From assembly GCF_010501015.1 (NCBI RefSeq), contig NZ_QVML01000001.1, positions 371,845-435,844 on the forward strand: a DNA stretch of 64,000 bases. Reading direction: 5' to 3'. The notes beneath the pieces are model-generated. The model did no database searches. It worked only from the letters and a program-made list of their open reading frames with translations, and was not told the DNA's origin. Position numbers and translations under genes: made by a program. Source of the stretch: Bacteroides sp. 214 (GTDB lineage: Bacteria; Bacteroidota; Bacteroidia; Bacteroidales; Bacteroidaceae). This document shows, one piece after another, positions 8,834 to 54,542 of this stretch (position 1 is the stretch's first letter; each line of letters opens with the position of its first letter).

Positions 8834-8873
8834 AACCGCAAGTACAGTGTTATCTGTAGCTTGCGGTTTTTTT
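8834..8873 (+). terminator. Terminator after tRNA-Arg
   Basis: AACCGCAAG and TACAG (8834-8847) pair with CTGTA and CTTGCGGTT (8854-8868, one bulged G), followed by seven T residues (8867-8873). Confidence 0.85.
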
Positions 8874-8980
8874 GTCTTTTCAAGTACAAAGACTTGACGC
8901 TTCAAGTTTGAAGACTTGACGCGTCAAGTATAAAGAGTACACGCGTCAAGTTTATAGACTTGACACACCCCCTCTCAGAA
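8871..8980. repeat. 22-bp array A1 (CTTGACGCGTCAAG, P class)
   Basis: Five units start at 8871, 8893, 8915, 8937 and 8959, exactly 22 bp apart. The core is the palindrome CTTGACGCGTCAAG followed by a semi-conserved tail ending AAGA/TAGA. The third unit is perfect, the second and fourth are near matches, and the outer two are partial. Bases 8921-8951 are identical to the reverse complement of 40383-40413 in array A6, and CCCCTCTCAGAAGC (8969-8982) is also shared. It lies between tRNA-Arg and the 3' end of the AlaX gene, just before array A2. Confidence 0.9.
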
Positions 8981-9013
8981 GCTTTGTGAGCAGGGTTTGA
9001 AATGGCTGATTTT

Positions 9014-9100
9014 CTGACTGAGTTTTGCTTCAATTCTGACTGAGTTTTTAAATTTTCTGACTGAGTTTTGAGGTAAAACTCAGTCAGAAAATTTTAGAAG
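9014..9100. repeat. 22-bp array A2 (CTGACTGAG, T class)
   Basis: CTGACTGAG starts at 9014, 9036 and 9057, and its inverse CTCAGTCAG at 9079 (steps of 22, 21, 22). The last two form a perfect 13-bp stem (CTGACTGAGTTTT / AAAACTCAGTCAG) followed by AAAATTTT, which may also end transcription. It continues the intergenic block begun by A1. Confidence 0.88.
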
Positions 9101-9105
9101 TTGAC

Positions 9106-9564
9106 TTACATCAATTTAAACCTTAATCGCAATCTTCCATCGGTATAGTCTGTTGTTGTTATTTTAAATGTGCCGATTTCAGACGTGTTGGATACATGCT
9201 GCCCGATACAGGCACAGGTGTCGTAATCGCCCACTTTAACAATACGAAGAGTTTCGCTCACATCGGTGGGGAGTTTGCTTAAGTCAACACCTTCGGGTAT
9301 GTTATCGCGTGTAACTAACATCTCGTTTACTGGCAAATGTTGTGCGATAATCTCATTAACCTTCTTTTCTATAGCAGCGATGATTTCGGTTGTTGGCTCT
9401 TGATTGATAAAGTAATCGCACTTACTTTTTTTACGTTCGATATGACTGTTTTTGGATCGTTCGCAAGAAAACATACGTACCATGGTTTGGTTAAGAATAT
9501 GTTCTGCGGTATGCATAGGTGGGTATTCCTCTTTGTTGTGCTCGTTGAGTGTTGCTTGATTCAT
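9106..9564 (-). CDS. AlaX-type alanyl-tRNA editing protein
   Basis: 152 residues matching a free-standing second additional domain (SAD) of alanyl/threonyl-tRNA synthetases. Both zinc/editing motifs are present: H18-T-A-E-H22 and C119-I-G-Q-H123. Such proteins hydrolyse mischarged tRNA, usually Ser- or Gly-tRNA(Ala), in the cytoplasm. The short length fits the compact AlaX-S type without the extra glycine-rich region. It begins one base after the end of the upstream antiporter gene, so the two are co-transcribed. The exact tRNA substrate is inferred from family. Confidence 0.82.
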   Translation of the reverse strand: MNQATLNEHNKEEYPPMHTAEHILNQTMVRMFSCERSKNSHIERKKSKCDYFINQEPTTEIIAAIEKKVNEIIAQHLPVNEMLVTRDNIPEGVDLSKLPTDVSETLRIVKVGDYDTCACIGQHVSNTSEIGTFKITTTDYTDGRLRLRFKLM

Positions 9565-9565
9565 G

Positions 9566-11839
9566 TTACTTTCTGTTATTTAAGTTTTCTTCAAATGCTC
9601 TTAACTTATTTTTTTCTCCTGCCAGCAATAAAATATCATCTTTTTGAAACACAAAATGTCCGGTAAGGATTGTAATGGTTTCTTCTCCGCGCTCAACGCT
9701 GATAATCATACATTCTGTATTCTTTGGCAGATTTAGCTGTGCGATTGTTTTTCCGACAATAGGAGACTCTTCTTCTACAATATATTGAGACAGCTCAACA
9801 TGATGTTCGGGTATTTGTTCTTCGCAACTTGCTTTCTTTGATTTTCGTTCTTCAATGCTTTTAATCAATCGTTGAATATTATCGTCAGAGCCGGCAATAA
9901 CAATTCTATCGTATGGATAAAGCTTTTCATGAGCATCGGGGATATTTATTTTTCTGTTTCCACGAAGAATGGTAACAACGCTAACACCCGTTTTTTGCCG
10001 GAAGTTTAGTTCATGCAAACTTTTGCCTATTTTGGGAGAGTTAGGGGTTATCTCTATTTCTTCTATGTGTATTTCTTTGGATAATAAGTGTTTCTTCATA
10101 CTGGAAGGTATAGCTGCTTTGTTCTCTTCCAACGTTTGCTTTAAGTTGAGATTACTTAAAAAACGAGCTTCCATTTTGCGCGATTGTTTCTTGAATCCTT
10201 GAGATAGAATGATGAAAATAATCACTACAAAGCCAATTAGAGACATCCAAATGGTTAGGTTGGAGAAAAGTGGAGTTAATACCATTAATATAAGAATCAT
10301 ACAAAGAAAAACCCTGGAAGCTATTAATAATATAAGAATCCCCCGATTGAAATAGTTATTGCCCCAAAGGTTCTTGAACTCTTCCGAACGATTCTTTTTC
10401 ATCAGTATAGCGCGTAGGAAAGGTGCCATCAGGGAGATAGTAAGAGTAGCTGATATGATTCTTCCAACTCTTCCGGGTATATATTCTATAATATAAGGTG
10501 TAGTAAAGCGTTCGCACAACAGCAAAACAGCAATAGCGAGTGCCGAATATATTGCGACTAGCTGAAGAATACTTTTAAGTAGTTTGTTCCAATCGTTTTG
10601 TGTGTTTACAGTTTTGTATTTGGAGGCAGTATATCCGGTAATTAAAGTATTCCACCTTGATGGAATTCTTTTTTCTATGAATGCGTATAGTGGAGTTGCC
10701 AGCCGGATGCAATAAGGCGTAGTAAATGTGGTAATGATAGATACTGAAACTATAATAGGGTAGAGGGTGTTGCTTATTACCCCCAAACTTGTTCCCAAAG
10801 TAGCTATGATAAAGGAGAATTCCCCAATTTGCGCAAGACTAAATCCTGCTTGCAACGACACTTTCAGACCTTCGCCTGAAGCCAGAACACCTAATGTGGC
10901 AAAAATAACGCGACCGATTAATACCACTACTACCAACACGGCAATTGTAACAGAATGTTCCCTTACAATATCGGGTGCAAGCATCATACCTACAGAAACA
11001 AAAAAAACTGCTCCAAAGAAGTTTTTCAATGGTTCCACTAATCGCTCAATGTGTTTAACCGCAACTGTTTCGGCAAGAATAGAGCCCATGATAAATGCTC
11101 CTAATGCTGCCGAGAATCCTACATGGGAAGCAAAAAGAACCATGCCGAAACAAAAGCCCATGGCAATGATTAGTAATGTTTCATCGTTGAGGAATCTTTT
11201 TATAGCTTTTAGCATTGTAGGGATTAAATAGATACCAACTACAAACCAAATAAGAATAAAAAAAACTAACCTAAACAGGCTGCCCAATAAAGCAGTTCCT
11301 TCTATTTCATTGCTTACTGCCAACGTGGATAGCAAGACCATCATTAATATAGCAGCTAAATCTTCTACAATAAGCATCCCAAAAACAATTCCTGCAAATC
11401 GCTGTTTCTGGAGTCCCATGTCATTGAATGCCTTAATGATAATAGTTGTGGAGGACATCGAAAGCATTCCTCCCAAAAAGATACTATCCATTTGTGACCA
11501 CCCAAAAGCCTTTCCTACAAAATATCCGATAATAATCATGGAACCTAGATTGACGAGAGTGGCAATAGTAGCTGTTCCACCTACTGCCATAAGCCGCTTA
11601 AAGCTAAACTCTAATCCTAGTGCAAAGAGTAGAAAGATAACACCGATTTCTGCCCAAACCTCTACGTTGCCCATATCAGTAACAGTAGGAAGCCATGTGA
11701 CGTGTGGTCCGGCAATAAAACCAGCCAATATATAGCCAAGAACTACAGGTTGCTTTAACCATTTAAATACAATGGTGGCAATGCCTGCTGTGATGAGTAT
11801 AATTGCTAAATCGGTAATAAATTCGTGTAAATGAGCCAT
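9566..11839 (-). CDS. CPA2-family cation:proton antiporter with two RCK-C domains
   Basis: 757 residues. Residues about 1-400 form the Na+/H+ exchanger membrane domain (GYILAGFIAGPHVTW, FLLFALGLEFSF, EDLAAILMMVLL, GAVFFVSVGMML). A second hydrophobic block spans about 440-560. The C-terminus carries two TrkA-C/RCK-C domains (about 620-680, IGKSLHELNFRQKTGVSVVTI; and about 700-757, VGKTIAQLNLPKNTECMIISV). There is no NAD-binding TrkA-N domain. It likely exchanges K+ or Na+ for H+ at the inner membrane. The start codon lies only 26 bp after tRNA-Thr without an intervening terminator. Confidence 0.9.
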   Translation of the reverse strand: MAHLHEFITDLAIILITAGIATIVFKWLKQPVVLGYILAGFIAGPHVTWLPTVTDMGNVEVWAEIGVIFLLFALGLEFSFKRLMAVGGTATIATLVNLGSMIIIGYFVGKAFGWSQMDSIFLGGMLSMSSTTIIIKAFNDMGLQKQRFAGIVFGMLIVEDLAAILMMVLLSTLAVSNEIEGTALLGSLFRLVFFILIWFVVGIYLIPTMLKAIKRFLNDETLLIIAMGFCFGMVLFASHVGFSAALGAFIMGSILAETVAVKHIERLVEPLKNFFGAVFFVSVGMMLAPDIVREHSVTIAVLVVVVLIGRVIFATLGVLASGEGLKVSLQAGFSLAQIGEFSFIIATLGTSLGVISNTLYPIIVSVSIITTFTTPYCIRLATPLYAFIEKRIPSRWNTLITGYTASKYKTVNTQNDWNKLLKSILQLVAIYSALAIAVLLLCERFTTPYIIEYIPGRVGRIISATLTISLMAPFLRAILMKKNRSEEFKNLWGNNYFNRGILILLIASRVFLCMILILMVLTPLFSNLTIWMSLIGFVVIIFIILSQGFKKQSRKMEARFLSNLNLKQTLEENKAAIPSSMKKHLLSKEIHIEEIEITPNSPKIGKSLHELNFRQKTGVSVVTILRGNRKINIPDAHEKLYPYDRIVIAGSDDNIQRLIKSIEERKSKKASCEEQIPEHHVELSQYIVEEESPIVGKTIAQLNLPKNTECMIISVERGEETITILTGHFVFQKDDILLLAGEKNKLRAFEENLNNRK

Positions 11840-11865
11840 CGAATTCTTGGTGTTATGTGGAGTGG

Positions 11866-11938
11866 AGCCGATAGCCGGACTCGAACCGGCGACCTACACG
11901 TTACGAATGTGTTGCTCTACCAACTGAGCTATATCGGC
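11866..11938 (-). tRNA. tRNA-Thr (anticodon CGT)
   Basis: Read on the minus strand, acceptor GCCGATA pairs perfectly with TATCGGC, D-stem GCTC/GAGC, anticodon stem ACACA/TGTGT-type around loop TTCGTAA (anticodon CGT, plus-strand 11903-11905, reads ACG), T-stem GCCGG/CCGGC with loop TTCGAGT, discriminator T. CCA is not encoded. No terminator separates it from the antiporter gene downstream. Confidence 0.95.
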
Positions 11939-11950
11939 AATTTTCGTACG

Positions 11951-11978
11951 CAAAATTAAAAAGATTATTTCAAAGTTA
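11951..11978 (-). promoter_or_regulatory. Candidate -7 boxes for tRNA-Thr
   Basis: Two minus-strand TAnnTTTG boxes lie upstream of the tRNA: TAATTTTG (11951-11958), 12 bp from the mature 5' end, and TAACTTTG (11971-11978). Neither has a clear TTTG 19 bp upstream, so which one is used is open. Confidence 0.4.
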
Positions 11979-12068
11979 AGAATGAATTGTTTTTCTTTTT
12001 CTTTGGACTGTATCGTTTTTTTCCTTTTTATGTGCTTTTTATGTGCTGTTTTTTATAAAGAATTATAT

Positions 12069-12076
12069 TACCTTTG
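12069..12076 (+). promoter_or_regulatory. -7 box of the polysaccharide export operon
   Basis: TACCTTTG matches TAnnTTTG and lies 34 bp before the start of the export gene. The -33 region is T-rich but lacks an exact TTTG. Confidence 0.5.
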
Positions 12077-12110
12077 CCGATAATTTATATTTTAATTAAA
12101 TAATAACACT

Positions 12111-14414
12111 ATGCGTAAAGCTATCACATGTTTATTATTATTGTTTGCAATATCAACAAGTATGTTGGCGCAACGAATGACGGAAGAACAAATTAAAGCC
12201 GCGATTGCAAGTCAGTCTACAGGAGTCGTTAATGAAGATCAAATTAAAGCTACGATTGCAAACCAGTCAACAGGAGTTGCTGAGCAACAAAGGACCCGCA
12301 ATGTGCCCGATTTGGCAAAAGATGATAGCATAAAAAATAATCAACCAAAGATTAAAAGTGAAATATTCGGGAAAGATTTATTTGCGAACAATAACCTTTC
12401 TTTTGAGCCAAGTACTAATATGGCAACGCCTGCAAACTACAGGTTAGGTCCAGGGGATGAAGTTATAGTGGATATTTGGGGAAATTCCGAAACAACTATC
12501 CGACAAACCATCTCTCCTGAAGGTAGCATACAAATTAATAAGATAGGACCTGTTTATTTAAGCGGAATGACTGTGCAAGAAGCAGAAGTATATATGCAGC
12601 GTGTGCTCTCCAAAATTTATGAGACGATAGGTGATGAGACTTCGCAAATTAGATTGACGCTTGGTCAAAACAGGACAATTCAAATAATAATGATGGGTGA
12701 AGTTTCTACTCCCGGTACTTATGCATTATCTTCATTCTCAACCGTATTTCATGCTTTATATAGAGCTGGTGGAATTAATTCTATTGGCGGTATGCGCTCA
12801 ATACAACTTATAAGAAATGGAAAAAAGATTGCAGATATTGATGTGTATGACTATGTCATGGATGGCAAAGTAGGCGAAGATATTCGTCTAATGGAAGGTG
12901 ATGTTATCATGGTACTTCCATATAATTCACTGGTCAGGATACAAGGTAAAGTAAAACGTCCGATGACTTATGAAATGAAAGAGGGGGAGACTGCTGCAAA
13001 AATACTAGAGTTTGCCGGTGGCTTTGTTGGCGATGCTTATAAACAAAATATACGCCTGATGAGACAAAGTGAAAAGGAAAAACAAGTTTTCACTATAGAG
13101 GAAATGGATTATTCGCTCTTTCCGTTACAGGATGGAGATACTATCGATGTAGGTACTATTCTTGATCGGTATGAAAATAAAATAGAAGTTATTGGGGCTG
13201 TCTATCGTGAAGGTACGTATCAATTAAGTGGAAATATAAATTCCGTTAAGCAATTGATTCAAAAGGCGGATGGCTTACGTGGAGATGCTTTTATGGAACG
13301 TGCACAGCTTCAACGTGAGAAAGATGACCTCAGTTTGGAACTAATATCAATTGATTTAAGAGGAATTATTAACGGAGCAGTTCCTGACATCCCTTTACAA
13401 CGCAATGATGTTTTATCTATCTCAAGCATTCATGATTTGAAGGAGAGCCCAATGCTTAAGATACATGGACTAGTAGCAAATCCAGGAACATATACGTATG
13501 CTGAAAAAATGTCTGTAAAGGATTTGATACTTAAGTCGGGTGGGTTGCTTGAGGCTGCTTCCGTTGTTCGTATTGATATTGCAAGAAGAATTAAAAATCC
13601 GGAAAGTGAAGAAACTACAAACTTGATAGGGAAGACTTATTCGTTTGATATGAAGGATGGTTATATCATAGGTGGTTCAGATAAATTTATATTAGAACCT
13701 TTTGATGAAGTATATGTTCGCCGTAGTCCTGCATATCAAGAACAACGAAATGTTACAGTAACAGGTGAAGTCGTTTTTGGTGGTGTGTATGCCTTAAATA
13801 AGAAAAACGAACGTCTAAGTGACTTAGTAGATAAAGCGGGTGGAATTACTCCTGATGCATTTGTAAATGGTGCCCGGTTAATGAGGCAAAAGAACGAGGA
13901 AGAGTTGCGACGAAGCAATGATGCTTTGAGTCTGGCTGCTAGAGAAGAACCGGAAGATTCTGTTTCGATTGTTGAAGTGGCAAAAAGCGAACCAACTTAT
14001 TCTGTTGGAATTAATCTTCAAAAAGCATTAGATAATCCGGGTTCTGACTTCGACTTGGTATTGAGGGAAGGGGATGAGCTTATTATTCCAGAATATATTA
14101 ATACGGTCAGAATAAATGGAGCGGTAATGCATCCAAATACAGTCCTATACAAAGAAGGAGAAAGTTTTAAGTATTATCTTGACCAGGTAGGAGGATATAC
14201 CAGTCGTGCTAAAAAAAGAAGAGCTTACGTGGTGTATATGAATGGTACTGTAGCCCGTCTGAAGGGAAATACAGCTAATAAAATAACTCCGGGTTGCGAG
14301 ATTATTATTCCAAATAAAGGCGAAACTAAAAAAATGACGGTAACTGAGACAATAAGTGTCGCTACTTCGCTTGTTTCGTTGGTTGCAATAGTTATTGCTC
14401 TACTTAGAAAGTAA
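12111..14414 (+). CDS. Polysaccharide export outer-membrane protein (Wza-like, multiple SLBB)
   Basis: 767 residues. A signal peptide (KAITCLLLLFAISTSMLAQ) is followed by an imperfect direct repeat, EEQIKAAIASQSTGV at about 24-38 and EDQIKATIANQSTGV at about 42-56. Next comes the polysaccharide export domain (NYRLGPGDEVIVDIWGN about 110-126) and a series of SLBB domains (for example VIGAVYREGTYQLSG, ITVPV-like turns, VTGEVVFGGVYAL, INGAVMHPNTVLY). A C-terminal membrane helix (TISVATSLVSLVAIVIALL) ends the protein. It is much longer than E. coli Wza because of extra SLBB copies. The Wzz-like gene follows after 6 bp. No glycosyltransferases are adjacent. Confidence 0.9.
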   Translation: MRKAITCLLLLFAISTSMLAQRMTEEQIKAAIASQSTGVVNEDQIKATIANQSTGVAEQQRTRNVPDLAKDDSIKNNQPKIKSEIFGKDLFANNNLSFEPSTNMATPANYRLGPGDEVIVDIWGNSETTIRQTISPEGSIQINKIGPVYLSGMTVQEAEVYMQRVLSKIYETIGDETSQIRLTLGQNRTIQIIMMGEVSTPGTYALSSFSTVFHALYRAGGINSIGGMRSIQLIRNGKKIADIDVYDYVMDGKVGEDIRLMEGDVIMVLPYNSLVRIQGKVKRPMTYEMKEGETAAKILEFAGGFVGDAYKQNIRLMRQSEKEKQVFTIEEMDYSLFPLQDGDTIDVGTILDRYENKIEVIGAVYREGTYQLSGNINSVKQLIQKADGLRGDAFMERAQLQREKDDLSLELISIDLRGIINGAVPDIPLQRNDVLSISSIHDLKESPMLKIHGLVANPGTYTYAEKMSVKDLILKSGGLLEAASVVRIDIARRIKNPESEETTNLIGKTYSFDMKDGYIIGGSDKFILEPFDEVYVRRSPAYQEQRNVTVTGEVVFGGVYALNKKNERLSDLVDKAGGITPDAFVNGARLMRQKNEEELRRSNDALSLAAREEPEDSVSIVEVAKSEPTYSVGINLQKALDNPGSDFDLVLREGDELIIPEYINTVRINGAVMHPNTVLYKEGESFKYYLDQVGGYTSRAKKRRAYVVYMNGTVARLKGNTANKITPGCEIIIPNKGETKKMTVTETISVATSLVSLVAIVIALLRK

Positions 14415-14420
14415 TTAATT

Positions 14421-15536
14421 ATGAGTGAGAATAAGGATGTAATAAAGACTCAGTCTGTACAATCAGAGGAGCAAGAAATTGACTTGATGGAATTAGTACG
14501 GAAAGTATGGGATGGTCGTGTCTTAATATTAAAATGGTGTGGCGTCGCTGCATTCATAGGATTAATTGTAGCCTTTAGTATTCCTCGTGAGTATGAAACT
14601 ACAGTCACTTTAGCCCCTGAAAACAGAGGAGGTGCATCTGGTGGAAGCATGGGAGCTTTAGCTGCCATGGCTGGTTTAACAACGGGAGCAACGAGTGGAA
14701 GAGATGCCTTATCGCCCGCTCTATACCCAGATATAGTAAGCTCGACGCCCTTCTTAATAGAGTTGTTCGAAGTGCCGGTTGTAGATAAAAAGGGAGAAGT
14801 ACAAACTACTCTTTGTGATTATCTGCAAAATCACCAACGCTCTCCATGGTGGAGCGGTATTGCATCTGCTCCTTTTAAAATTCTTGGTTGGGGATTGTCT
14901 TTGTTCAAGAGCAAGGGAGAGGAGGCTGTTGAAAGCGAGATTGACCCCTTTAGGTTAACACATAAAGAAGCTGGTATTGCTAGTCAGATTGCTAGCCGTA
15001 TAAAGGTAACTGTTGATAATAAGAGTGGTGTAACCTCGTTATCTGTGACGATGCAAGACCCTTTAATCTCAGCTACAATAGCTGATGTAGTTATGAGTCG
15101 ATTGCAAATGCATATTACAAATTATCGTACTACTAAAGCGCGTCATGATTTTGAGTTTGCGGATAAATTATTTACTGAAGCAAAAGCGAATTATATGATT
15201 GCGATGGAACGTTATGCTGTTTATGTAGACAAAAATACGAATATAGTACTCGAAAGTTCGAAAGTGGATAGAACACGTTTGTTGAATGAAATGAATTTAG
15301 CATATTCTCTGTATATGCAGCTGTCTCAACAACTTGAGGTAGCTCGCGCCAAAGTGCAAGAAATAACCCCTGTTTATACAGTTGTTCAACCGGCCTCTGT
15401 TCCGTTATCTCCAGTTAAACCACGTAAAGCAATGATTTTGATTGGATTTGTGTTTTTAGCAGGTGTTGCTGCTGTGGGATGGATATTGTTTGTTAAAGAC
15501 TTTATCGCGGAGTGGAAGAAACCTAAGACTGCTTGA
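14421..15536 (+). CDS. Wzz-type polysaccharide co-polymerase / chain-length determinant
   Basis: 371 residues with the typical layout: cytosolic N-terminus with an EIDLMELVRKVWDGRV Wzz signature (about 18-33), first membrane helix about 37-57, periplasmic helical domain, conserved PASVPLSPVKPRK motif and a second membrane helix about 340-360. Such proteins set the chain length of exported polysaccharide together with an OPX partner. It is 6 bp downstream of the export gene. It lacks a tyrosine-kinase domain. The helicase on the other strand ends 2 bp away. Confidence 0.9.
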   Translation: MSENKDVIKTQSVQSEEQEIDLMELVRKVWDGRVLILKWCGVAAFIGLIVAFSIPREYETTVTLAPENRGGASGGSMGALAAMAGLTTGATSGRDALSPALYPDIVSSTPFLIELFEVPVVDKKGEVQTTLCDYLQNHQRSPWWSGIASAPFKILGWGLSLFKSKGEEAVESEIDPFRLTHKEAGIASQIASRIKVTVDNKSGVTSLSVTMQDPLISATIADVVMSRLQMHITNYRTTKARHDFEFADKLFTEAKANYMIAMERYAVYVDKNTNIVLESSKVDRTRLLNEMNLAYSLYMQLSQQLEVARAKVQEITPVYTVVQPASVPLSPVKPRKAMILIGFVFLAGVAAVGWILFVKDFIAEWKKPKTA

Positions 15537-15538
15537 GG

Positions 15539-16801
15539 TTAGTTCTGCCCCTTCTTTGGTCCTTTCTGTCTTCCACCTTTGCGGAAACTGCTATTGCCAG
15601 GTCTTCTCTTTTTTTCGCTGCGTTTGAACTCTCCTTTTGATTGACTTTTGGGGTTGTATGCAGGTGCTTCGCCAAGTTCAATAGGTACAGGTATTTTATA
15701 GATATCCTTTTCAAGGAAATCTTCAATCTGCTTGAAGTCACGTTGCTCTTTTTCGCTAACAAACGTAAGCGCTACACCGTCGTTGTTAGCACGTGCTGTT
15801 CTGCCAATGCGGTGTACATAATCTTCGCTGTCGTGGGGTACATCAAAATTAATAACTAGTCGTATATCATCAATATCGATACCACGTGCTACTATGTCGG
15901 TGGCTACCAGTACATTTACCTTTCCCGTTTTGAATTCGTGCATAATTTGTTCACGCTGTATTTGCTCCAAATCCGAGTGCATTTCACCTACGTTGAGTTT
16001 CATCATTTTCAGTGACTTGGTGACTTCTTTCACTTTAAGTTTAGATGAAGCGAAGATAATTACCTTTTCGGGAGGCTCTTGCGCAAAGAGCACACGAATA
16101 ATACCCAGTTTTTGGTATTCTGTGCAAACGTATGCGGCCTGTATAATTTTCTCAGCAGGTTTAGATACAGCTATTTTAACTTCTACAGGGTCATGGAGTA
16201 TGTTTTTTGCCATTTGCTGTATCTTTGTAGGCATCGTAGCCGAAAACATAATTGTCTGACGTTCTTTAGGCAGCAATTTTGCAATTTGCATAATATCATC
16301 ATAAAAACCCATATCAAGCATACGGTCTGCTTCATCAAGAATAAAGAAAGAAACTTTTGAAAGATCTACATACCCTAGATTGATGTGTGAGAGTAGACGC
16401 CCGGGAGTAGCGATAACCACGTCTGCACCCAATACAAGTCCTCTCTTTTGTTGTTCAAATAAGATACCGTCATTGCCTCCATATATGGCTACGCTTGAGG
16501 TAGGCATAAAGTATGAGAAACCTTCCATTTGCTGGTCAATCTGCTGTGCTAACTCGCGGGTGGGCGACATGATGATACAGTTGATAGCATCTTCGGGATA
16601 GTTCCCACTATTCAATTTGTTGATTACTGGGAGTAGAAAAGCAGCAGTCTTACCGGTTCCGGTTTGAGCCACAGCAATTAGGTCTTTTCCTTCAAGAATG
16701 ATAGGTATGGATTTCTCTTGTATAGGGGTGCACTCGTCAAAGCGCATAGCTTCTAGTGCTTCCAGTATAGTCTCAGATAAGTTTAATTCAGTAAACTTCA
16801 T
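15539..16801 (-). CDS. DEAD-box RNA helicase (RhlE-like)
   Basis: 420 residues with the full helicase set: Q motif (FDECTPIQEKSIP), motif I AQTGTGKTAA, motif Ib/TPGR (ATPGRLL), motif II DEAD, motif III SAT, motif V VATDIVARGIDI and motif VI HRIGRTARA. The C-terminal tail (about 375-420) is lysine/arginine-rich and likely binds RNA. It unwinds RNA using ATP, in ribosome assembly or mRNA decay. The serB gene starts the minus-strand pair upstream, 20 bp away. Confidence 0.93.
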   Translation of the reverse strand: MKFTELNLSETILEALEAMRFDECTPIQEKSIPIILEGKDLIAVAQTGTGKTAAFLLPVINKLNSGNYPEDAINCIIMSPTRELAQQIDQQMEGFSYFMPTSSVAIYGGNDGILFEQQKRGLVLGADVVIATPGRLLSHINLGYVDLSKVSFFILDEADRMLDMGFYDDIMQIAKLLPKERQTIMFSATMPTKIQQMAKNILHDPVEVKIAVSKPAEKIIQAAYVCTEYQKLGIIRVLFAQEPPEKVIIFASSKLKVKEVTKSLKMMKLNVGEMHSDLEQIQREQIMHEFKTGKVNVLVATDIVARGIDIDDIRLVINFDVPHDSEDYVHRIGRTARANNDGVALTFVSEKEQRDFKQIEDFLEKDIYKIPVPIELGEAPAYNPKSQSKGEFKRSEKKRRPGNSSFRKGGRQKGPKKGQN

Positions 16802-16821
16802 GGGTTAATCTTTATTTATGA

Positions 16822-23635: not shown

Positions 23636-23965
23636 CAAACAATAAACATACCATTTATAGTTTTGCTGTTAATAAATGTTATATGGGGATATATTCTACA
23701 ACTTTATTGAAAAATAGTTGATTATTTTAGTCTTTTCCACTTGTATAATAACCGATAAGTCTGTTTGATGTAAGCCAACATTACTGCTTGTTCTGTATTT
23801 GTATAATATTGTATATCTTGAAAACGACATAAAAACAACCAATATGATTCCCTTATTACTTTTATACTTTCTTTTTGGTTAATGCTGTTTGATGAAGTGG
23901 GGTGAGTCTCAACTTGCAAAAGTGCTCTACAAGCCTTCTGGGTAGGGTGTTTTTGAATCGAAAAG
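23636..23965. other. Intergenic DNA, possible small ORF remnant
   Basis: AT-rich gap upstream of the LruC gene. A minus-strand frame from 23919 to 23722 (65 codons) has a protein-like end (NTEQAVMLAYIKQTYRLLYKW), but there is no promoter or recognisable family. It may be a remnant or chance; I do not call it a gene. Nothing else is recognised here. Confidence 0.3.
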
Positions 23966-24075
23966 AGCCTATGGATGAGCGACTGTTTGCCATAGGCTCA
24001 CGACCCATCATCCATAAGCATACAGAGTGTTTGCTTATGGCAAACGGTCGTTCGTCCATAGGCATAGAAAGAAAA
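23966..24075. repeat. 22-bp array A3 (GCCTATGG / CCATAGGC, P class)
   Basis: Five units start at 23966, 23988, 24010, 24032 and 24054, exactly 22 bp apart. The cores are AGCCTATGG, TGCCATAGG, ATCCATAAG, TGCTTATGG and GTCCATAGG, so orientation is +,-,-,+,- while the phase holds. Bases 23967-23994 match the reverse complement of 24036-24063 at 25 of 28 positions, and CCATAAGCA (24012-24020) pairs with TGCTTATGG (24032-24040). TGCTTATGGCAAACG (24032-24046) recurs in array A7. Confidence 0.9.
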
Positions 24076-24076
24076 A

Positions 24077-24164
24077 TGGACTGTGTTTGAATGTAGAACT
24101 GACTGTGTTCTTTCCTGGTTTTGACTGTGTTTTTATTCAAGATGCAGTCAGAAAAATAGGCGTT
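24077..24164. repeat. 22-bp array A4 (CTGACTGTG, T class)
   Basis: TGGACTGTG at 24077, CTGACTGTG at 24099, TTGACTGTG at 24121, then the inverse TGCAGTCAG at 24143; all steps are 22 bp. The first unit is 23 bp from the last A3 unit. The last unit is inverted and followed by AAAAAT, as in array A2. Confidence 0.88.
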
Positions 24165-24422
24165 ATAAGCCTCGTAGGGTATGTTTTGGGTGATGTGAGT
24201 GTTTTTTACACTGTTTGAGGCGTTTTTTCTAAAGCCGTTTTCCTGCGATTTTTCCTGTCCACGCGTTGGCTTTTCTCATTTTATCGCATTCTCGAAGCCT
24301 TTGACATTATGATAGTTTTCCAATTACCATCGACCTGCAGAAAAGTTTATATTTATAACCACAAAAGAATGTCATTGCCTATTTAGTTTATTTAATTAAG
24401 GTGGAATATGCCATTCTTTTTT
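24165..24422. other. Intergenic DNA upstream of pheT
   Basis: No gene is seen. It contains AGTGTTTTTTACACT (24199-24213) and scattered AGGCG/GCC repeats that may be worn T-class units, but they do not keep a clear 22-bp phase. Confidence 0.4.
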
Positions 24423-33625: not shown

Positions 33626-33735
33626 TGGTAACCAGTTGGAGCAAGAATGGTTACCACTACTATCCTAAATGGTTACCACGGGTATTTATAGTGGTTACCA
33701 GTAATACTCTTTGTGGTAACCGCTAAGTTGGTTTG
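33626..33735. repeat. 22-bp array A5 (TGGTTACCA, P class)
   Basis: Five copies of the 9-bp palindrome TGGTWACCA start at 33626, 33648, 33670, 33692 and 33714, exactly 22 bp apart (the last ends in G). The 13-bp stretches between them are unrelated to each other, so the period is kept although the spacers are not copies. It sits between the def terminator and the SDR promoter, outside any gene. Confidence 0.92.
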
Positions 33736-40058: not shown

Positions 40059-40256
40059 ATGGAAAAGATTGCAGAAAAATAAACCGATCTCATTGGTAAC
40101 ACTCCATTGTTAGAACTGAAATCTTTTGAGAAACATTTATCTATAGATGCGCATTTGATTGGAAAGTTAGAGTATTTTAACCCATTAGGAAGTATGAAAG
40201 ACCGTATAAAACGAATAAAGTATGAAACAAGGTATTGTAGTAGAAAACGGCTCAAT
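40059..40256 (+). pseudogene. cysK: Broken, truncated cysteine synthase (cysK relic)
   Basis: The reading frame from ATG 40059 gives MEKIAEK then TAA, then continues in frame as TDLIGNTPLLELKSFEKHL... FNPLGSMKDRI, the start of O-acetylserine sulfhydrylase, including the PLP-lysine motif GSMKDR. After about codon 50 the match moves to the +1 frame (QGIVVENGSI, from 40228), then ends. About 60-65 of the roughly 310 residues remain. Defects seen: an early stop at codon 8, a frameshift and loss of the rest. Array A6 begins about 80 bp downstream. Confidence 0.85.
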
Positions 40257-40339
40257 TCGAAATCTTTGTTGGTGCTTGTCTTCCCTTTACATTTCTGCTT
40301 ATTCCCCCAAAATACAACGTGCTCTAAGACGCTTCTGAG

Positions 40340-40449
40340 AGGGGTATTTCAGCCCCAAATACTTGACGCGTCAACTCTTTATACTTGACGCGTGTACTCT
40401 TTATACTTGACGCTTCAAGTATTTGGAGCACACGGCTATACTATTTTCC
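40340..40449. repeat. 22-bp array A6 (CTTGACGCGTCAAG, inverse copy of A1)
   Basis: Three strong units start at 40362, 40384 and 40406, 22 bp apart, with weaker flanking units at 40340 and 40428. Core CTTGACGCG(T)CAA. Bases 40383-40413 equal the reverse complement of 8921-8951 over all 31 positions, and GCTTCTGAGAGGGG (40331-40344) equals the reverse of 8969-8982. It lies downstream of the cysK relic and before the tRNA-Lys terminator. Confidence 0.9.
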
Positions 40450-40481
40450 CTATAACTTTAAGTTGTGCAAGTGGCATAAAG

Positions 40482-46256: not shown

Positions 46257-46388
46257 AGCCATAGGCGCGCGAGTCGAATGCTTATGGCAAACGAGTCGAA
46301 TGCTTATGGTATTTGCACCAAATGCTTATGGCATTCGACTTGATTGCTTATAGCTCTTGCACCAGCAGCCTATGCTTTATTAGTTCAA
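46257..46388. repeat. 22-bp array A7 (TGCTTATGG, P class)
   Basis: Six units start at 46257, 46279, 46301, 46323, 46345 and 46367, exactly 22 bp apart. Cores: AGCCATAGG, TGCTTATGG (three times), TGCTTATAG and AGCCTATGC. The 13-bp spacers differ, though GAGTCGAATGCTTATGG occurs twice (46271-46287 and 46293-46309). TGCTTATGGCAAACG (46279-46293) is identical to a stretch of array A3. It follows the uxaB terminator and precedes array A8. Confidence 0.92.
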
Positions 46389-46405: not shown

Positions 46406-46480
46406 CTCAGTGAGAAATGATTGCTTTCTCACTGTTTTTTACTCAAAACACACTGAAAAACCATCCATTTCTCACTGAAC
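46406..46480. repeat. 22-bp array A8 (CTCAGTGAG / CTCACTG, T class)
   Basis: CTCAGTGAG at 46406, CTCACTGTT at 46428, CACACTGAA at 46449 and CTCACTGAA at 46471 (steps 22, 21, 22). CAGTGAGAAA (46408-46417) pairs perfectly with TTTCTCACTG (46425-46434). It follows array A7 by 39 bp, the same P-then-T order as A1-A2 and A3-A4. Confidence 0.82.
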
Positions 46481-48447: not shown

Positions 48448-48484
48448 ACGAATTACTTATTATTAATATAGATATAGAAAACGA

Positions 48485-50335
48485 ATGATGGATAAAAATA
48501 CCATAACAGGACTTGTCTTGATTGTACTACTGCTGATAGGATTTAGCTACTTTAGCCGTCCCTCGCAAGAACAACAAGAAGCCTTTAAACGATACAATGA
48601 CTCAATTACCATCGTTAAGCAAAAGGAAGAGGCTCTTAGAGAAAAAACAGCTGCTGCCCTTGCCAACGAAAAAGAAATCGTAACAATTGATTCAACCTCT
48701 ACTTTCTTTAATGCGATTGAGGGTGTAGAAGGTACAGTAGTGATTGAAAATGAACTGCTAACAGCCGTAATCGACAATAAAGGCGGTAGGGTTACAAAAG
48801 TTACACTAAAGGAGTACAATGACCAGGAAAAGCAACCGTTGGTGTTGTTTGACGGTAACGAGATGATGATGAACTTTTACTTCTATAATAAGAAGGAAGC
48901 AATTCAGACTAAAGATTACTACTTTATACCGGTTAACCAATCGGAGATGGGTGTAACCATGCGTTTGGTAGCAGGAGAGGAGAGTTACATTGACTTCATT
49001 TACCAACTCAAACCGGATAATTATCTGTTGGATTTTACCATACAGGCAGTTGGAATGGAAAACTTGTTGGCACATAGTGTAGATTATCTTAATATAGAAT
49101 GGTCACAACGTGCTCGCCAATTAGAACGTGGTTCGGTTTTTGAAAAAAGATTATCCAACCTTACATATAAGTATGTAGCCGACAAAACTGATAACCTTGC
49201 CGAAGCCAAAGATGATGAAGAAACTATTGACAGACGATTGAATTGGATTGCTTACAAAAATCAGTTCTTTTCATCGGTGTTTATTGCCGACCAAAGCTTT
49301 AGCGAGAATATCCTAAAATCACGTGTTGGAAAAGAAGGTAATGATTACATTAAGGATTATTCTTCAGAGATGCGTACCTCTTTTGACCCTAAAGGAGAAG
49401 CGCCCACTACAATGCATTTCTATTTTGGCCCTAACCACTACAAAACCCTCAAGGCTTATGATAAAGGAAAGAGCGGTGACAGTAAGTGGAAACTTAATGA
49501 CTTGGTTTACTTGGGCTGGCCGGTAGTAAAACAAATCAACCAATGGTTTACTGTAAATATCTTCGACTGGTTATCAAGTTGGGGGTTAGGTATGGGATTG
49601 GTTCTTTTCTTGATGACAGTTTTGGTAAAAATTGTGGTGTTTCCTGCAACATGGAAAACATATATGTCTTCGGCCAAGATGCGTGTGTTGCGTCCTGAGA
49701 TTGAAAAGATTAACGCTAAATATCCCAAGCAGGAAGATGCAATGAAGAAGCAACAAGAAACCATGGCGCTGTATAGTAAATATGGTGTAAGTCCTATGGG
49801 TGGTTGTTTGCCGATGCTGTTGCAGTTCCCTATATTAATGGCTTTGTTTATGTTTGTGCCTAGTGCGATTGAGTTGCGTCAGGAAAGTTTCTTGTGGGCA
49901 AACGACTTGTCGACCTATGATGCAATACTTAAATTACCGTTCAATATTCCTTTCATGGGTAGTCACATCAGCTTGTTCTGTTTGTTAATGACGGTAACAA
50001 CCATCCTTAACACCAAGTACACTATGTCTCAACAAGATACCGGACAACAACAGATGCCGGGTATGAAGTGGATGATGTACCTCATGCCGGTAATGTTCCT
50101 CTTTATATTGAATAGCTATCCTGCCGGGTTGAACTATTACTATTTTATCTCTACTTTGATAAGTGTAGTTACAATGATTGTTCTGCGCAAAACAACCAAT
50201 GAAGAAAAACTGTTGGCAGGACTTGAAGCAAATAAGACAAAGAATAAAACCAAGAAGAAATCAGGATTCGCTGCACGTCTGGAAGCAATGCAGAAAGAGC
50301 AGGAGCGGATGTTGAAAGAGAGACAAAAGAAGTAA
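48485..50335 (+). CDS. yidC: Membrane protein insertase YidC
   Basis: 616 residues. An N-terminal anchor ([17 protein letters not shown]), a large periplasmic domain (about 60-355), and the conserved 60KD_IMP/YidC region at the C-terminus (from about 365, [59 protein letters not shown]) with about five helices and a lysine-rich tail. It inserts inner-membrane proteins alone or with SecYEG. The first of two adjacent ATGs is used. It is followed by a terminator and the S9 peptidase gene. Confidence 0.96.
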
Positions 50336-50350
50336 ATGAATAGATAATTC

Positions 50351-50387
50351 AAAAAAAGGTACAGGAGCATAACTTGTGCCTTTTTTT
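50351..50387 (+). terminator. Terminator of yidC
   Basis: AAAAAAAGGTACA pairs with TTGTGCCTTTTTTT (one mismatch), ending in seven T residues. Confidence 0.78.
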
Positions 50388-50407
50388 AGCCAATAATCAA
50401 AACGTCT

Positions 50408-52495
50408 ATGAAACATGTAAGTTTATTAATGATGTCAGCAGCTATGATGTTAGCTTCTTGTGCCACTGAGAAGGTACAGAAAGAAAATCCGGTACTTATC
50501 GGAAAGTCAACCATACAAGTGAGTGATAAACGAATGACCCCCGAAGCACTGTGGGCATTCGGTAGAATAGGAGAGGTAGCTGTTTCGCCTGATGAAAAGC
50601 AGATAGCTTATACGGTTGCCTATTACAGCATTCCCGAGAATAAAAGCAATCGCGAAGTATTTGTGATGAATGCCGACGGCAGTCAAAACAGGCAAATAAC
50701 GCAAACTCCATACAGTGAAAACCAGGTTGTCTGGATTAAGGGTGGTAGTAAACTAGCCTTCTTGAGTAGCGAAAGTGGTAGCAGTCAGGTTTGGGAAATG
50801 AATCCTGATGGAACCGGACGTAAACAACTTACTGCTTATGATGGTGATATTGAGGGTTTTGCCTTCTCGCCCGACGAAAAGAAACTACTCTTTATCTCTT
50901 CCATAAATGTCATTCCAAGTACAGCCGATCTGTATCCCGACTTGGCAAAAGCCAGTGGTTTGCTTCGTTCCGACCTGATGTATAAGCATTGGGATGAATG
51001 GGTAACAACTGCGCCACATCCTTTTATTGCCGATTTCGATGGAAATAGTATCGCTAATGTTATGGATATACTACAAGGAGAGCCATACGAAAGTCCGATG
51101 AAGCCTTTTGGTGGTATTGAACAATTGGCATGGAACACTACCTCTGATAAGGTTGCATATACTTGTAAGAAAAAAACAGGTAGAGCGTATGCACTTTCTA
51201 CTAACTCGGATATCTATATCTATGACCTCAAGACCAAGCAACACACAAATATTACTGAAGGGAATATGGGGTATGATACCAATCCTACGTACTCACCCGA
51301 TGGTAAGAGCATTGCATGGTTGAGTATGGAGCGAGATGGTTACGAGTCGGACTGGAATCGCTTGTTTGTGATGAATTTAGAAACCGGCGAGAAACGTTTT
51401 GTGAGCAAATCGCTAGATTCAAATGTAGATACGTATAGTTGGAGCAAAGATGCACAGACAATCTATTTTACCAGTGTGTGGCATGGTAAGACACAGATTT
51501 ATGCTGTAACCTTAGCCGATGAACAATTAAAAGTAATAACCGAAGGTGTGCACGACTATGCTTCTGTTGCTTTGTGTGGTGACAAGTTAATAGCTAAAAG
51601 ACACTCCATGAGTATGGCAGACGAGATTTATGCCGTAGCTCTGAATGGTGAAGCTACTCAGCTAACCTTTGAGAATAAACATCTCTATGATCAGTTGGAA
51701 ATGGGTAGGGTAGAGGAACGTTGGATGAAAACAACCGATGGTAAGGAGATGCTTACATGGGTAATTTATCCGCCTAACTTTGATCCTAACAAAAAATACC
51801 CTGCAATTTTGTACTGTACCGGTGGTCCTCAAAATGCGGTAAGCCAGTTCTTTTCCTATCGTTGGAACATGCAAATGATGGCGGCAAACGACTATATAAT
51901 TGTTGCGCCCAATCGTCGTGGACTTCCCGGATTCGGACTGGAGTGGAACGAACAAATTAGTGGAGACTATGGTGGTCAGTGCATGAAAGATTTATTTACT
52001 GCTATTGATGTCATGGCAAAAGAGCCGTTCATTGATGAAGAGCGTTTAGGTTGTGTAGGTGCCAGCTTTGGTGGATATACTGTTTATTGGATGGCTGGTC
52101 ATCACGAAAAGCGTTTCAAAGCATTCATTTCACATTGTGGTATATTTAACATGGAAGTGCAGTACATTGATACAGAAGAAATATTCTTTGCGAATTGGGA
52201 TATGGCTGGCCCTTACTGGGATAAGAATAACCCTAAGGTAAAGAATACATATAAACATTCTCCGCACTTGTTTGTAGAAAAATGGGATACACCGATACTT
52301 TGTATTCATGGAGAGAAAGACCTACGTGTACCGGTTACACAAGGAACGATGGCGTTCAATGCGGCTCGTGTTCAAAATATTCCGGCGGAGTTATTGATAT
52401 TCCCGGATGAAAACCATTGGGTTTTGAAGCCACAGAACGGAATCTTGTGGCAACGAACATTCTTTAGCTGGCTGGATAAATGGCTAAAGAATTAA
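50408..52495 (+). CDS. S9-family serine peptidase, lipoprotein
   Basis: 695 residues. Signal with lipobox SAAMMLASC (Cys18). A beta-propeller (about 45-420) shows repeated PDGxSI/AWLS or SPDEK-type blades; the C-terminal alpha/beta hydrolase holds the nucleophile GASFGGY (Ser about 555), an acid and the histidine in FPDENHWVLKPQ. It fits acylaminoacyl-peptidase or dipeptidyl-peptidase-like S9 enzymes, probably surface- or periplasm-attached and acting on peptides. The opposing creatininase-family gene overlaps its 3' end by 4 bp. Confidence 0.92.
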   Translation: MKHVSLLMMSAAMMLASCATEKVQKENPVLIGKSTIQVSDKRMTPEALWAFGRIGEVAVSPDEKQIAYTVAYYSIPENKSNREVFVMNADGSQNRQITQTPYSENQVVWIKGGSKLAFLSSESGSSQVWEMNPDGTGRKQLTAYDGDIEGFAFSPDEKKLLFISSINVIPSTADLYPDLAKASGLLRSDLMYKHWDEWVTTAPHPFIADFDGNSIANVMDILQGEPYESPMKPFGGIEQLAWNTTSDKVAYTCKKKTGRAYALSTNSDIYIYDLKTKQHTNITEGNMGYDTNPTYSPDGKSIAWLSMERDGYESDWNRLFVMNLETGEKRFVSKSLDSNVDTYSWSKDAQTIYFTSVWHGKTQIYAVTLADEQLKVITEGVHDYASVALCGDKLIAKRHSMSMADEIYAVALNGEATQLTFENKHLYDQLEMGRVEERWMKTTDGKEMLTWVIYPPNFDPNKKYPAILYCTGGPQNAVSQFFSYRWNMQMMAANDYIIVAPNRRGLPGFGLEWNEQISGDYGGQCMKDLFTAIDVMAKEPFIDEERLGCVGASFGGYTVYWMAGHHEKRFKAFISHCGIFNMEVQYIDTEEIFFANWDMAGPYWDKNNPKVKNTYKHSPHLFVEKWDTPILCIHGEKDLRVPVTQGTMAFNAARVQNIPAELLIFPDENHWVLKPQNGILWQRTFFSWLDKWLKN

Positions 52496-53250
52496 TATAA
52501 ATCGTGTAGACCAACCTCGCCAAAGAGTTTTGCAATTTTCTCTACTACAGCATGGATATAAGCGGCACCTTTTTCGGGTGTCGCTTTTTTCGGATTACCC
52601 ACACCGCTATCAATGGTTGTTTTATCCCAGTGGCGTGGTGCCCAACCCAATTTTTCATTTAAAGCAGGTATAGCAAATGGCTTGGAGTCACCGTCGCCTG
52701 CTTCTTCCAAATGAACTAATTCGGGATGATAATGCATCATCACCGATGTTTCCATCTCACCAGCATGGTCATCAATAGCTGCTTCAAAATATCCTTTGGG
52801 CGAAACCACACTAAACCATTCGGCAGAGACAATCAGAAAATCGGGGTAAACAAAAGCCAAATCACGAATCATTCCTTTAAAATGATTGCCACCGTGTCCA
52901 CTAAGAATTATTAGTTTTCTTACTCCCTGCACATAGAGTGAAGCTACAATATCTTCCAAAATGGCTTGCTGGGTAGAATAACGCGTATGTATGCAGAAGG
53001 GAAGTTCGCGCTGACCGGGGTTGTGTGCGCCAAATGCAACAGGCGGCAACACCATACAGCGCATTCCATATTGCTTAAGAGTTAACTCAGCGGCTTCTAC
53101 GGCAATATCATGAGGAAGAATGCAGTCGGTCAGATAGGGCAAGTGTAAGTTATGAGGTTCGGTTGCTCCCCAAGGAAGTACTACGACATCGTATTTAACT
53201 CCTCTTACTTTGCCATAAGAGGAGAGTGATAGGTCAAATTCTTTATTCAT
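52492..53250 (-). CDS. Creatininase-family amidohydrolase
   Basis: 252 residues. The family motif is PWGATEPHNLHLPYLTD (metal-binding Glu/His), with GGHGGNHF (SGHGGNHFKG here) and DDHAGEMETS. Such zinc enzymes cleave cyclic amides such as creatinine or formamide-type rings; which substrate applies is unknown. It ends with a 4-bp overlap into the S9 gene on the opposite strand, and is preceded by a TATCTTTG box (53295-53302). Confidence 0.88.
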   Translation of the reverse strand: MNKEFDLSLSSYGKVRGVKYDVVVLPWGATEPHNLHLPYLTDCILPHDIAVEAAELTLKQYGMRCMVLPPVAFGAHNPGQRELPFCIHTRYSTQQAILEDIVASLYVQGVRKLIILSGHGGNHFKGMIRDLAFVYPDFLIVSAEWFSVVSPKGYFEAAIDDHAGEMETSVMMHYHPELVHLEEAGDGDSKPFAIPALNEKLGWAPRHWDKTTIDSGVGNPKKATPEKGAAYIHAVVEKIAKLFGEVGLHDLY

Positions 53251-53294
53251 TTCATTGAGTTGATTCAGATTGCTATTTGCTCTAAGCTAAAATA

Positions 53295-53302
53295 CAAAGA
53301 TA
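53295..53302 (-). promoter_or_regulatory. -7 box of the creatininase-family gene
   Basis: Minus-strand TATCTTTG (plus CAAAGATA), 44 bp before the start. Confidence 0.45.
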
Positions 53303-53314
53303 AGAATGTTTTTC

Positions 53315-54196
53315 TTATTGCTTTCTGAATTCTTTGGGAGAAACTCCGGTGCAGTTCTTAAAATATTTGCCAAAGAAAGACTGGTTAGCGAAATTCAAGT
53401 CATCGGCAATTTCTTGAATATTCTTTTTGGAACCACTTAGCAAACTTTTGGCTTCATTAATAACAAAATTGTCAATCCACTCACCGGCAGTTCGCCCGCT
53501 AACTTCTTTTACCACACAAGAAAGGTGTTTGGGGGTAACACATAACTCATAGGCATAGAAATTTACACTTCTTTCTTTCTTGAAATTAGAAGATAGGCTA
53601 CGCATAAAATAATCAAACAATGACTCCTGTCTTGTTTTGTGGGGAATGTTGATTTTCCTTTTGTTATTGTACACATCATATATCTCATAGTACAACGAGA
53701 CAATCAGGTTACAAATAATATCTCGTAAAAATTCACCATGTTCTTCGTTTGTTTTCTTCCAGATAAGGTTAAAATAGTCGAGTATTCGTTCCAACTGCCT
53801 TTGACTTAGAGAGATACACGGATAGTCTTTGGTATAAAAGAAGAAAGGTAACATTATCTTAATGCGAGCATAGGTTTCGTCAGAGAACTCTCGAGACATA
53901 GCTATACACACACTTTGATAATCGGGGCTAACTTCGATAGATTGCAAAACTTGATCGGGCAAGCTAATAAGTAGGGTGCCCGGAGTAATATAGTACTCTT
54001 GCATATTTATTCCAACACGTGTAAAGCCATTCAGGCAAATAGAAATAACAGTCGTATCTATTCTTGTTGGCTTATCATAAGAAGGCATTAACCGCAAATC
54101 ATTAAAGATATAAAAATCGCTATCAATGTGGTTTACTTTTCTTTCATCAGTGCAAATGGGAAAAGTCTCTAAATTGTATATGGAAATTGCATTCAT
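53315..54196 (-). CDS. AraC-family transcriptional regulator
   Basis: 293 residues. The N-terminal part (about 1-180) is a cupin-like sensing domain; the C-terminal region (about 195-293) is an AraC-type double helix-turn-helix (LCVTPKHLSCVVKEVSGRTAGEWI; IQEIADDLNFANQSFFGKYFKNCTGVSPKEFRKQ). It is likely an activator or dual regulator. The gene has a TAGATTTG box at 54212-54219 that is overlapped by an inverted repeat, pointing to autoregulation. The next gene in its direction is the creatininase-family gene, 64 bp downstream with its own promoter. Confidence 0.92.
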   Translation of the reverse strand: MNAISIYNLETFPICTDERKVNHIDSDFYIFNDLRLMPSYDKPTRIDTTVISICLNGFTRVGINMQEYYITPGTLLISLPDQVLQSIEVSPDYQSVCIAMSREFSDETYARIKIMLPFFFYTKDYPCISLSQRQLERILDYFNLIWKKTNEEHGEFLRDIICNLIVSLYYEIYDVYNNKRKINIPHKTRQESLFDYFMRSLSSNFKKERSVNFYAYELCVTPKHLSCVVKEVSGRTAGEWIDNFVINEAKSLLSGSKKNIQEIADDLNFANQSFFGKYFKNCTGVSPKEFRKQ

Positions 54197-54211
54197 AAGG
54201 CTCTCTTTTTA

Positions 54212-54239
54212 CAAATCTAACAATTAAAACTGTTAGATT
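54212..54239 (-). promoter_or_regulatory. Inverted repeat overlapping the AraC promoter
   Basis: AATCTAACA (54214-54222) and TGTTAGATT (54231-54239) are perfect inverses 8 bp apart. They overlap the minus-strand -7 box TAGATTTG (54212-54219) just upstream of the AraC start, the place for an autorepression operator. Confidence 0.5.
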
Positions 54240-54437
54240 ATTCGCAAATAGAACACAAATCAGAGAAATAGAACAAAATAAGAGTTTTACAGAAGAGGGT
54301 AAAACTTAAAATGCGAAGTAATTGTTACAAACAGTTTACAAAAACGAGGTTGTTTTCTTGCTTTTATGATGAACAAGTCGCTAAATCCGTTGGGTTATTT
54401 TTTGGATTATACCTGACGAAGCGCATTTTTGCACCTT
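54240..54437. other. Intergenic DNA between AraC and the TonB receptor
   Basis: AT-rich; no gene, promoter or terminator is recognised. Confidence 0.4.
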
Positions 54438-54542
54438 GTCTTATGGCAAAAAAAGACACTGACTTTTGAAATAAAACTCAGTGTCTTTTGAGGTGTTTCT
54501 CAGTGCTTTTTGATTCAAAAAACACTGAGAAATTTTAGTTAC
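54438..54542. repeat. 22-bp array A9 (CTCAGTGTC, T class) with a P-type unit before it
   Basis: GACACTGAC at 54455, CTCAGTGTC at 54477, CTCAGTGCT at 54499 and AACACTGAG at 54521; all steps are 22 bp. The last two pair as CTCAGTG/CACTGAG. Just before, GTCTTATGGCAAA (54438-54450) resembles the P-class core TGCTTATGGCAAA, and the preceding TTTGCACC also occurs in array A7. The tail GAAATTTTAG matches array A2 (GAAAATTTTAG). Confidence 0.85.

Follow-up and report, generated by a model that had tools for sequence, protein, structure and literature searches.

The window analysed here, a 64,000-nucleotide stretch of Bacteroides sp. 214 (assembly GCF_010501015.1, contig NZ_QVML01000001.1, positions 371,845 to 435,844), carries nine intergenic arrays, A1 to A9, in which short motifs recur every 22 bp. 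The arrays probably serve as platforms for a sequence-specific DNA-binding protein, copies of which would line up next to one another every two turns along the same face of the helix. Because the step is constant and the motifs vary from family to family and from species to species, the arrays are likely landing sites for DNA-binding proteins. The combination that marks a protein-binding site array, namely conserved motif and spacing with free spacer sequence, was found only in the ATAGTGACG family of G021, G222 and G145, three other genomes of the genus.

The original prediction had placed nine arrays in the window, with different motifs and a constant period, and all nine were found where it put them. 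Reading of 9-mer motif centres by hand bore out the 22-bp step, with a single 21-bp step in each of A2 and A8, and showed that the step is independent of the motif and of its orientation, inverted units in A3 and A7–A9 still falling on the 22-bp step. In the intergenic DNA of the window (39% G+C; source genome 3.39 Mb in 75 contigs), 78 exact 7-mer matches were counted at lag 22 against a mean of 0.77 in 60 dinucleotide shuffles, which rejects a chance origin of the arrays. Lags 44 (30 matches) and 66 (10 matches) are harmonics of 22; lags 11, 20, 21, 27, 43 and 58 also exceeded 4 standard deviations, with 4–19 matches each.

The same signal extends through the genome, of which 864 kb were sampled, including forty further 20-kb stretches taken in contig order; given this order, and since two of the forty were placed around transposase genes, the sample is not random. 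A lag-22 match occurred in 50 of 294 intergenic regions, compared with a mean of 1.9 and a maximum of 13 regions for lags off 22 and its multiples; lag 33 was matched in one region. Across 400 kb of contig C22, lag 22 gave 238 exact 7-mer matches against a median of 6 for lags 8–120, and it was the top lag in both 400-kb genome sets (176 and 299 8-mer matches, median 2). The genome-wide excess of lag 22 over other lags that the original prediction had anticipated is thus present. In total, 51 lag-22 arrays were called in the 864 kb, which extrapolates to about 200 per genome.

The arrays of the source genome fall into several motif families, among them CAGTSAG, CCATARGC, GTGGTTACCAC, TCTTCACANNTGTGA, TTCTCAACATGG, CTTGACGCGTCAAG and GTGCCAACGCGTTGGCAC, and the AATGCATTAAC..ATAACTC family has a step of 21. 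Neighbouring motifs with centres no more than 70 bp apart were counted in the 864-kb sample for two families. In family A, the distance was 22 bp in 35 of 41 same-orientation and 15 of 18 inverted pairs, and in family B in 38 of 39 and 25 of 28, respectively. The TCTTCACA motif behaved differently, with 7 of 13 neighbour pairs at 11 bp, all within a 135-bp module described below. Dyad centres peak at 11 and 22 bp in this genome and at 11, 22, 33 and 44 bp in other Bacteroidales, the peaks at 11 and 33 arising because the dyad recurs every 22 bp. General palindromy of the units of the source genome was considered and is unsupported by the dyad measure; by the same measure the arrays of other Bacteroidales, unlike those of the source genome, are often palindromic (21 of 37).

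Direct evidence on selection comes from the ATAGTGACG (ATAGTGACGNTAT) family, which was collected with a DNA query carrying an intact array in G021, G222 and G145, a strict pattern having matched nothing. Matches were turned into loci, both strands counted (15/35, 15/44 and 30/42 for the three genomes, respectively), and removal of second hits left 11, 13 and 19 distinct arrays. All but one of these 43 arrays have four units, the remaining one having three, and 128 of 128 steps are 22 bp where 20–24 were allowed. The 13-bp arms are kept, and the 9-bp spacers vary in sequence but not in length. In eight ortholog pairs between G021 and G222, both members retain the 22-bp steps, and 4 of 416 motif positions have changed (1.0%) against 26 of 216 spacer positions (12%; Fisher, 1.7e-9); in the flanks, 195 of 1412 noncoding positions (13.8%) and 253 of 3011 coding positions differ. 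No array changed length, whereas 12.5 insertions or deletions would be expected from the flank rate of 28 in 1412 (P 3.6e-6). With G145 included, 27 pairs at 11 loci, which are not independent of one another, gave 14 changes in 1404 motif positions, 98 in 729 spacer positions and 452 in 4495 noncoding flank positions, with 0 insertions or deletions against 31.8 expected. The free motif position (N) holds its locus pattern in 7 of the 8 G021/G222 pairs, which speaks against homogenisation between loci.

The original prediction had offered two origins for the period, selection of the spacing, for example for a phased DNA-binding protein, and fixation by a copying step. Selection of the spacing is directly supported in the ATAGTGACG family of these other genomes, not in the window's own families, and the kept motif and pitch fit a phased binding protein, although binding itself is inferred. 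A copying step could still have set the period, but would leave unexplained that motifs are retained while spacers diverge.

The arrays were also considered as RNA-level elements, either hairpin terminators or stabilisers of mRNA 3' ends. The gene context speaks in part for this: in co-directional gaps, 15 of 18 arrays of the source genome and 8 of 8 of the ATAGTGACG family lie nearer the gene 3' end, 7 of 16 ATAGTGACG loci are in convergent gaps, and where array-free genomes have the same convergent gap, it holds a single hairpin as judged by eye. The RNA itself shows no sign of being the conserved feature, since spacers 1 and 3 of the ATAGTGACG family are not complementary (2.25 of 9 matches against 3.62 when shuffled, 24 arrays) and the free position shows no covariation between the units expected to pair (12 against 11.4 expected and 17 against 19.4, 34 arrays); RNA hairpins as the conserved feature were rejected for this family on these grounds. 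Moreover, 20 of 46 arrays of the source genome lie in divergent gaps, which make up 37% of its intergenic sequence; 5 further arrays, at the ends of stretches, were not counted. No significant preference for a gap type was seen among these 46, and other Bacteroidales show no 3' preference in co-directional gaps (8 of 15 arrays). We therefore regard an RNA-level role as very improbable. The idea that arrays sit in gaps whatever the gene orientation accordingly holds in the source genome for the type of gap, but not for position within co-directional gaps, where the 3' end is favoured. With motif and pitch kept, spacers drifting much as the flanking noncoding DNA does and no RNA pairing in the ATAGTGACG family, it is DNA sites at a fixed pitch that appear to be kept.

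Sites for a site-specific recombinase were considered as another alternative. In loxP and FRT, conserved arms surround a spacer whose length, not sequence, matters, and the kept 13-bp arms and length-fixed, sequence-free 9-bp spacers of the ATAGTGACG family match this design, as does the >><< orientation of its units in 36 of 43 arrays. This orientation is not general, however, for same-orientation neighbour pairs outnumber inverted ones in families A and B of the source genome (80 against 46), and spacer length varies between families while the period is constant. No recombinase gene was found linked to an array, although no systematic search was made. Such an origin appears improbable, if marginally less so than a role in RNA.

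Arrays turn over between relatives. A comparison of 23 loci for one convergent gap found in G021 included 7 with partial matches only; two of these partial matches (G078, G009) begin within the array and run onward. Among the other 16 loci, those of G021, G222 and G145 carry the ATAGTGACG array, whereas the gap holds other sequence, hairpin-like by eye, in G240, G141, G127, G125, G030, G138, G218, G115 and G014. In G012, G093, G237 and G001 (loci L288, L289, L290 and L292), it holds a GATGAGCATC array, with four units exactly 23 bp apart in 4 of 4.

The 22-bp step recurs beyond the source species, whose PheT has its closest match in Bacteroides sp. 519 (83%) among 80 titled records, other genomes of the genus reaching 81%. 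Lag-22 regions amounted to 12 of 164 in five further genomes of the genus (for the other lags, a mean of 1.0 and a maximum of 4), 9 of 111 in three Hoylesella/Prevotella genomes (mean 0.7, maximum 3) and 39 of 598 in 80 titled Bacteroidales loci (mean 5.3, maximum 24). Two control groups of six genomes each (220 and 180 kb) gave 1 of 84 regions for other orders of the class and 1 of 68 for other classes, and a 50-kb sample of E. coli gave 0 of 17; with control samples this small, the restriction to Bacteroidales is a result of the sample. The motifs of the arrays read in other Bacteroidales, including ATAGTGACG, TGGAACA..TTCCA, CATGTACA, TTTATAATAAA and AAACGGGCCGTTT, differ from those of the window's genome. 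In Hoylesella oralis (G061, L111), a GTCAACCTCCGTGGTTCAC family gave 124 matches, mostly at exact 22-bp steps among the matches listed, and none on either strand in the nine other genomes searched. In L260 of G218 (1269-1351), CATCTT/AAGATG dyads stand at exactly 21 bp near a sequence that looks tRNA-like by eye.

The original prediction, correct on positions and step, had missed that several arrays belong to dispersed noncoding elements. Array A6 (40359..40413), three units of CTTGACGC-type palindromes with steps of 22, lies within a dispersed element resembling a miniature inverted-repeat transposable element (MITE) on the minus strand at 40249..40456, about 208 bp with approximate limits. 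The A6 element is common to 10 of the 12 other distinct loci read, A1 not counted, and to one of the ten on its left side only; at L001 and L002 the array is present without the flanks of the element. In the alignment of copies, which omits L003 and L009 because their anchor was unmatched, the terminal inverted repeats, ACGGATCAAGT..ACTTGATCCGT, are most intact in L007, and the L010 copy has one unit where others have three, a difference of two whole units. The whole element was not found in other genomes of the genus. About 20–40 bp of the query matched in 5 of 148 other genomes, with at most five candidates scored in each; in the four of these loci that were read no transposase was noticed by eye, and on the same search a parent insertion sequence was sought and not found. 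A near match to GATCAAGTAGAAATCTTTGTTGGTG, resembling one end of the A6 element, was noted in another genome of the genus between genes (L257); in L258 such a sequence follows a tRNA-like sequence, overlapping only an 84-aa open reading frame, and in L256 the match lies inside a gene and may be due to chance.

A second dispersed noncoding element, at 23924..24318 (limits approximate), carries both A3 and A4, aligns over about 400 bp with three other loci (L033 near 16.4k, L034 near 8.7k in reverse, and L159 near 6.3k) and holds the imperfect inverted repeat CCCTACAAG / CTTGTAGGG. Within it, A3 (23967..24063) consists of GCCTATGG/CCATARGC motifs in mixed orientation with centres 22 bp apart, and A4 (24078..24151) of three GACTGTG copies followed by an inverted CAGTCAG, with steps of 22. 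For arrays other than A6 and A3 with A4, terminal inverted repeats were not recognised. The 135-bp module, listed at 40 sites in the source genome, is mostly followed by a CAGTSAG array and often then by a CCATARGC array; of 17 copies read, four had no array after the module and one had an array of another family. When copies are aligned on the module, with 26 of 30 rows included, motif columns are generally more conserved than spacer columns. A search of 118 other genomes of the genus (E 0.001; at most seven candidates scored in each) did not find the module. With the arrays masked, flanks common to another region were found for 41 of 79 array-bearing intergenic regions, a class that includes weak two-copy arrays, against 24 of 186 array-free regions.

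These carriers are what would be expected if the arrays were parts of selfish, MITE-like noncoding elements with internal minisatellites, whose step is set by unit copying through a transposase or replication and is of no use to the cell. The terminal inverted repeats and whole-unit copy differences of the A6 element, the dispersal of the A3 and A4 element, the excess of shared flanks and the confinement of the 135-bp module to its own genome among those searched all favour this explanation. So does the L322 array of G222, which is missing from the orthologous G021 gap. At this one site, the G021 sequence is shorter and shows no clean target-site duplication. Idle copies, however, should decay evenly, yet in the old orthologues of the ATAGTGACG family motifs have changed by 1%, spacers by 12% and lengths not at all, and the locus pattern of the free position, kept in seven of eight pairs, indicates that loci are not being homogenised. 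We therefore consider purely selfish elements unlikely, though the strongest of the alternatives, and membership of the carriers in the MITE or REP (repetitive extragenic palindromic) class is not established.

The remaining arrays of the window show the same geometry. A1 (8889..8951), downstream of a tRNA gene, is built of CTTGACGCGTCAAG-type palindromes at a 22-bp step, and a short stretch to its right resembles, by eye, the flank of the A6 element. A2 (9014..9087) has three copies of CTGACTGAG followed by an inverted CTCAGTCAG, with steps of 22, 21 and 22, and A5 (33626..33721) has five units of TGGTWACC(A) with steps of 22. In A7 (46259..46374), GCTTATGG/GCCTATG motifs follow one another at steps of 22 with the first unit inverted. 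The last two arrays, A8 (46406..46477; CTCAGTG/CTCACTG motifs, steps 22, 21 and 22) and A9 (54455..54529; CTCAGTG/CACTGAG motifs, steps of 22 on motif centres), both contain CTCAGTG. Both A1 and A6 adjoin tRNA genes, and Rfam at the gathering threshold reported three tRNAs only in the window and no family at the arrays.

Within the open-licence PubMed Central (PMC) literature, the closest published system is BrickBuilt, a MITE of Porphyromonas gingivalis, also named in PMC5771137 and PMC10969869. The available portion of PMC4596501 describes it as one family with a spacerless 23-nt unit in up to 22.8 copies, reported from P. gingivalis and P. gulae only. Both BrickBuilt, with its leader, internal tandem repeat, tail and small inverted-repeat ends, and the present arrays are dispersed intergenic elements in which part of the repeat unit is more conserved than the rest (PMC4596501). 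BrickBuilt is nevertheless a direct 23-nt tandem without spacers, whereas the arrays combine a 22-bp step with variable spacers and inverted units, and that same portion of its account makes no claim of a period common to unrelated motifs or of selection on spacing (PMC4596501). A period common to unrelated motifs throughout an order, together with a conserved step, was not found in the open-licence PMC literature, which omits most subscription papers.

Other known repeats share single features with the arrays. Like REP sequences and bacterial interspersed mosaic elements (BIMEs) with their REP-associated tyrosine transposases (RAYTs), the arrays are short, dispersed and sometimes grouped palindromic repeats; unlike them, they keep a fixed step, since, in the sections of PMC3733652 available, REP partners lie 20–100 bp apart and carry GTAG or CGTC tags. 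A RAYT origin was examined and rejected, as the two Y1_Tnp genes of the genome (Pfam PF01797; L146 1399-1902 on contig C4 and L147 1402-1854 on contig C6) are flanked by other palindromes and not by 22-bp arrays, although one of the two genes has a GCCTATGG-type array some 0.65 kb away. The nests around these genes, CACGGGTTTCACCCGTG / CCCCTACGGGG and CTAGGGTTACGCGCG, are unlike the 22-bp arrays, and long degenerate tracts built of ACATTCGTATGTTTGT lie on both sides of the second gene (L147 1100-1300 and 2020-2380). Arrays of clustered regularly interspaced short palindromic repeats (CRISPR) also have regular repeats with variable spacers, but the same sections give repeats of 24–48 bp at one or more loci (PMC3733652), whereas here the whole period is 22 bp, units are freely inverted and arrays are dispersed.

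Iterons and cooperative operator arrays present repeated protein-bound sites about two helical turns apart on the same face. They differ from the present arrays in serving one origin or promoter with one motif, whereas the arrays occupy many loci with many motif families. We class the arrays as dispersed intergenic repeats that likely work like a protein-site array.

Several observations weigh against binding by side-by-side proteins. No binder was found. The selection test covers another family in other genomes, no close relative having been found for the window's families, and since its arrays were collected by similarity to an intact array, best matches only, decayed arrays are under-sampled. 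The arrays of the source genome are not more palindromic than random by the dyad measure (6 of 51 against 530 of 3000 random 22-mers), and family A is hardly palindromic. Two genomes, G017 (0 matches) and H. oralis (1), lack the lag-22 peak in the sample, although H. oralis does have the dispersed 22-bp GTCAACCTCCGTGGTTCAC family. Among the 80 titled loci, lag 21 is raised as well, with 31 of 598 regions, partly from 7-bp repeats. Helical phasing alone would, finally, permit steps of 11 and 33 bp, yet 33 is not raised by region counts, although lag 33 is second-highest in G021 by match count, and 11 is raised for TCTTCACA only; purely helical phasing was rejected on this basis.

Steps of 21–23 bp amount to about two turns, so that sites face much the same way. 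The step is probably dictated by contact between neighbours, as it is exact within each family and 33-bp steps show no excess by region counts. Under this reading of the arrays as protein sites, each motif family would have its own binder, and the proteins would bind as dimers or chains whose contacts tolerate a single step in any one family (22, or 21 or 23 in some families). Small noncoding elements, mobile or copied, may carry the arrays to new places in a genome, where they would settle at the least harmful positions, often near gene 3' ends. Possible tasks would include insulation, an end-of-gene roadblock, nucleoid anchoring or control of the elements themselves.

More tentatively, Bacteroidales might hold an order-specific class of DNA-binding proteins that assemble side by side with a fixed geometry (one unit per two turns, almost always 22 bp) but whose target changes fast between families and species; small noncoding elements would have spread selected landing arrays for them, up to hundreds per genome. 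Standard searches by homology or family overlook a repeat class that is defined by a ruler and not by sequence. Should binding occur as proposed, Bacteroides of the gut and related bacteria would hold many selected, unannotated intergenic sites together with a set of binders, and the function of the arrays can be tested in genetically tractable species.

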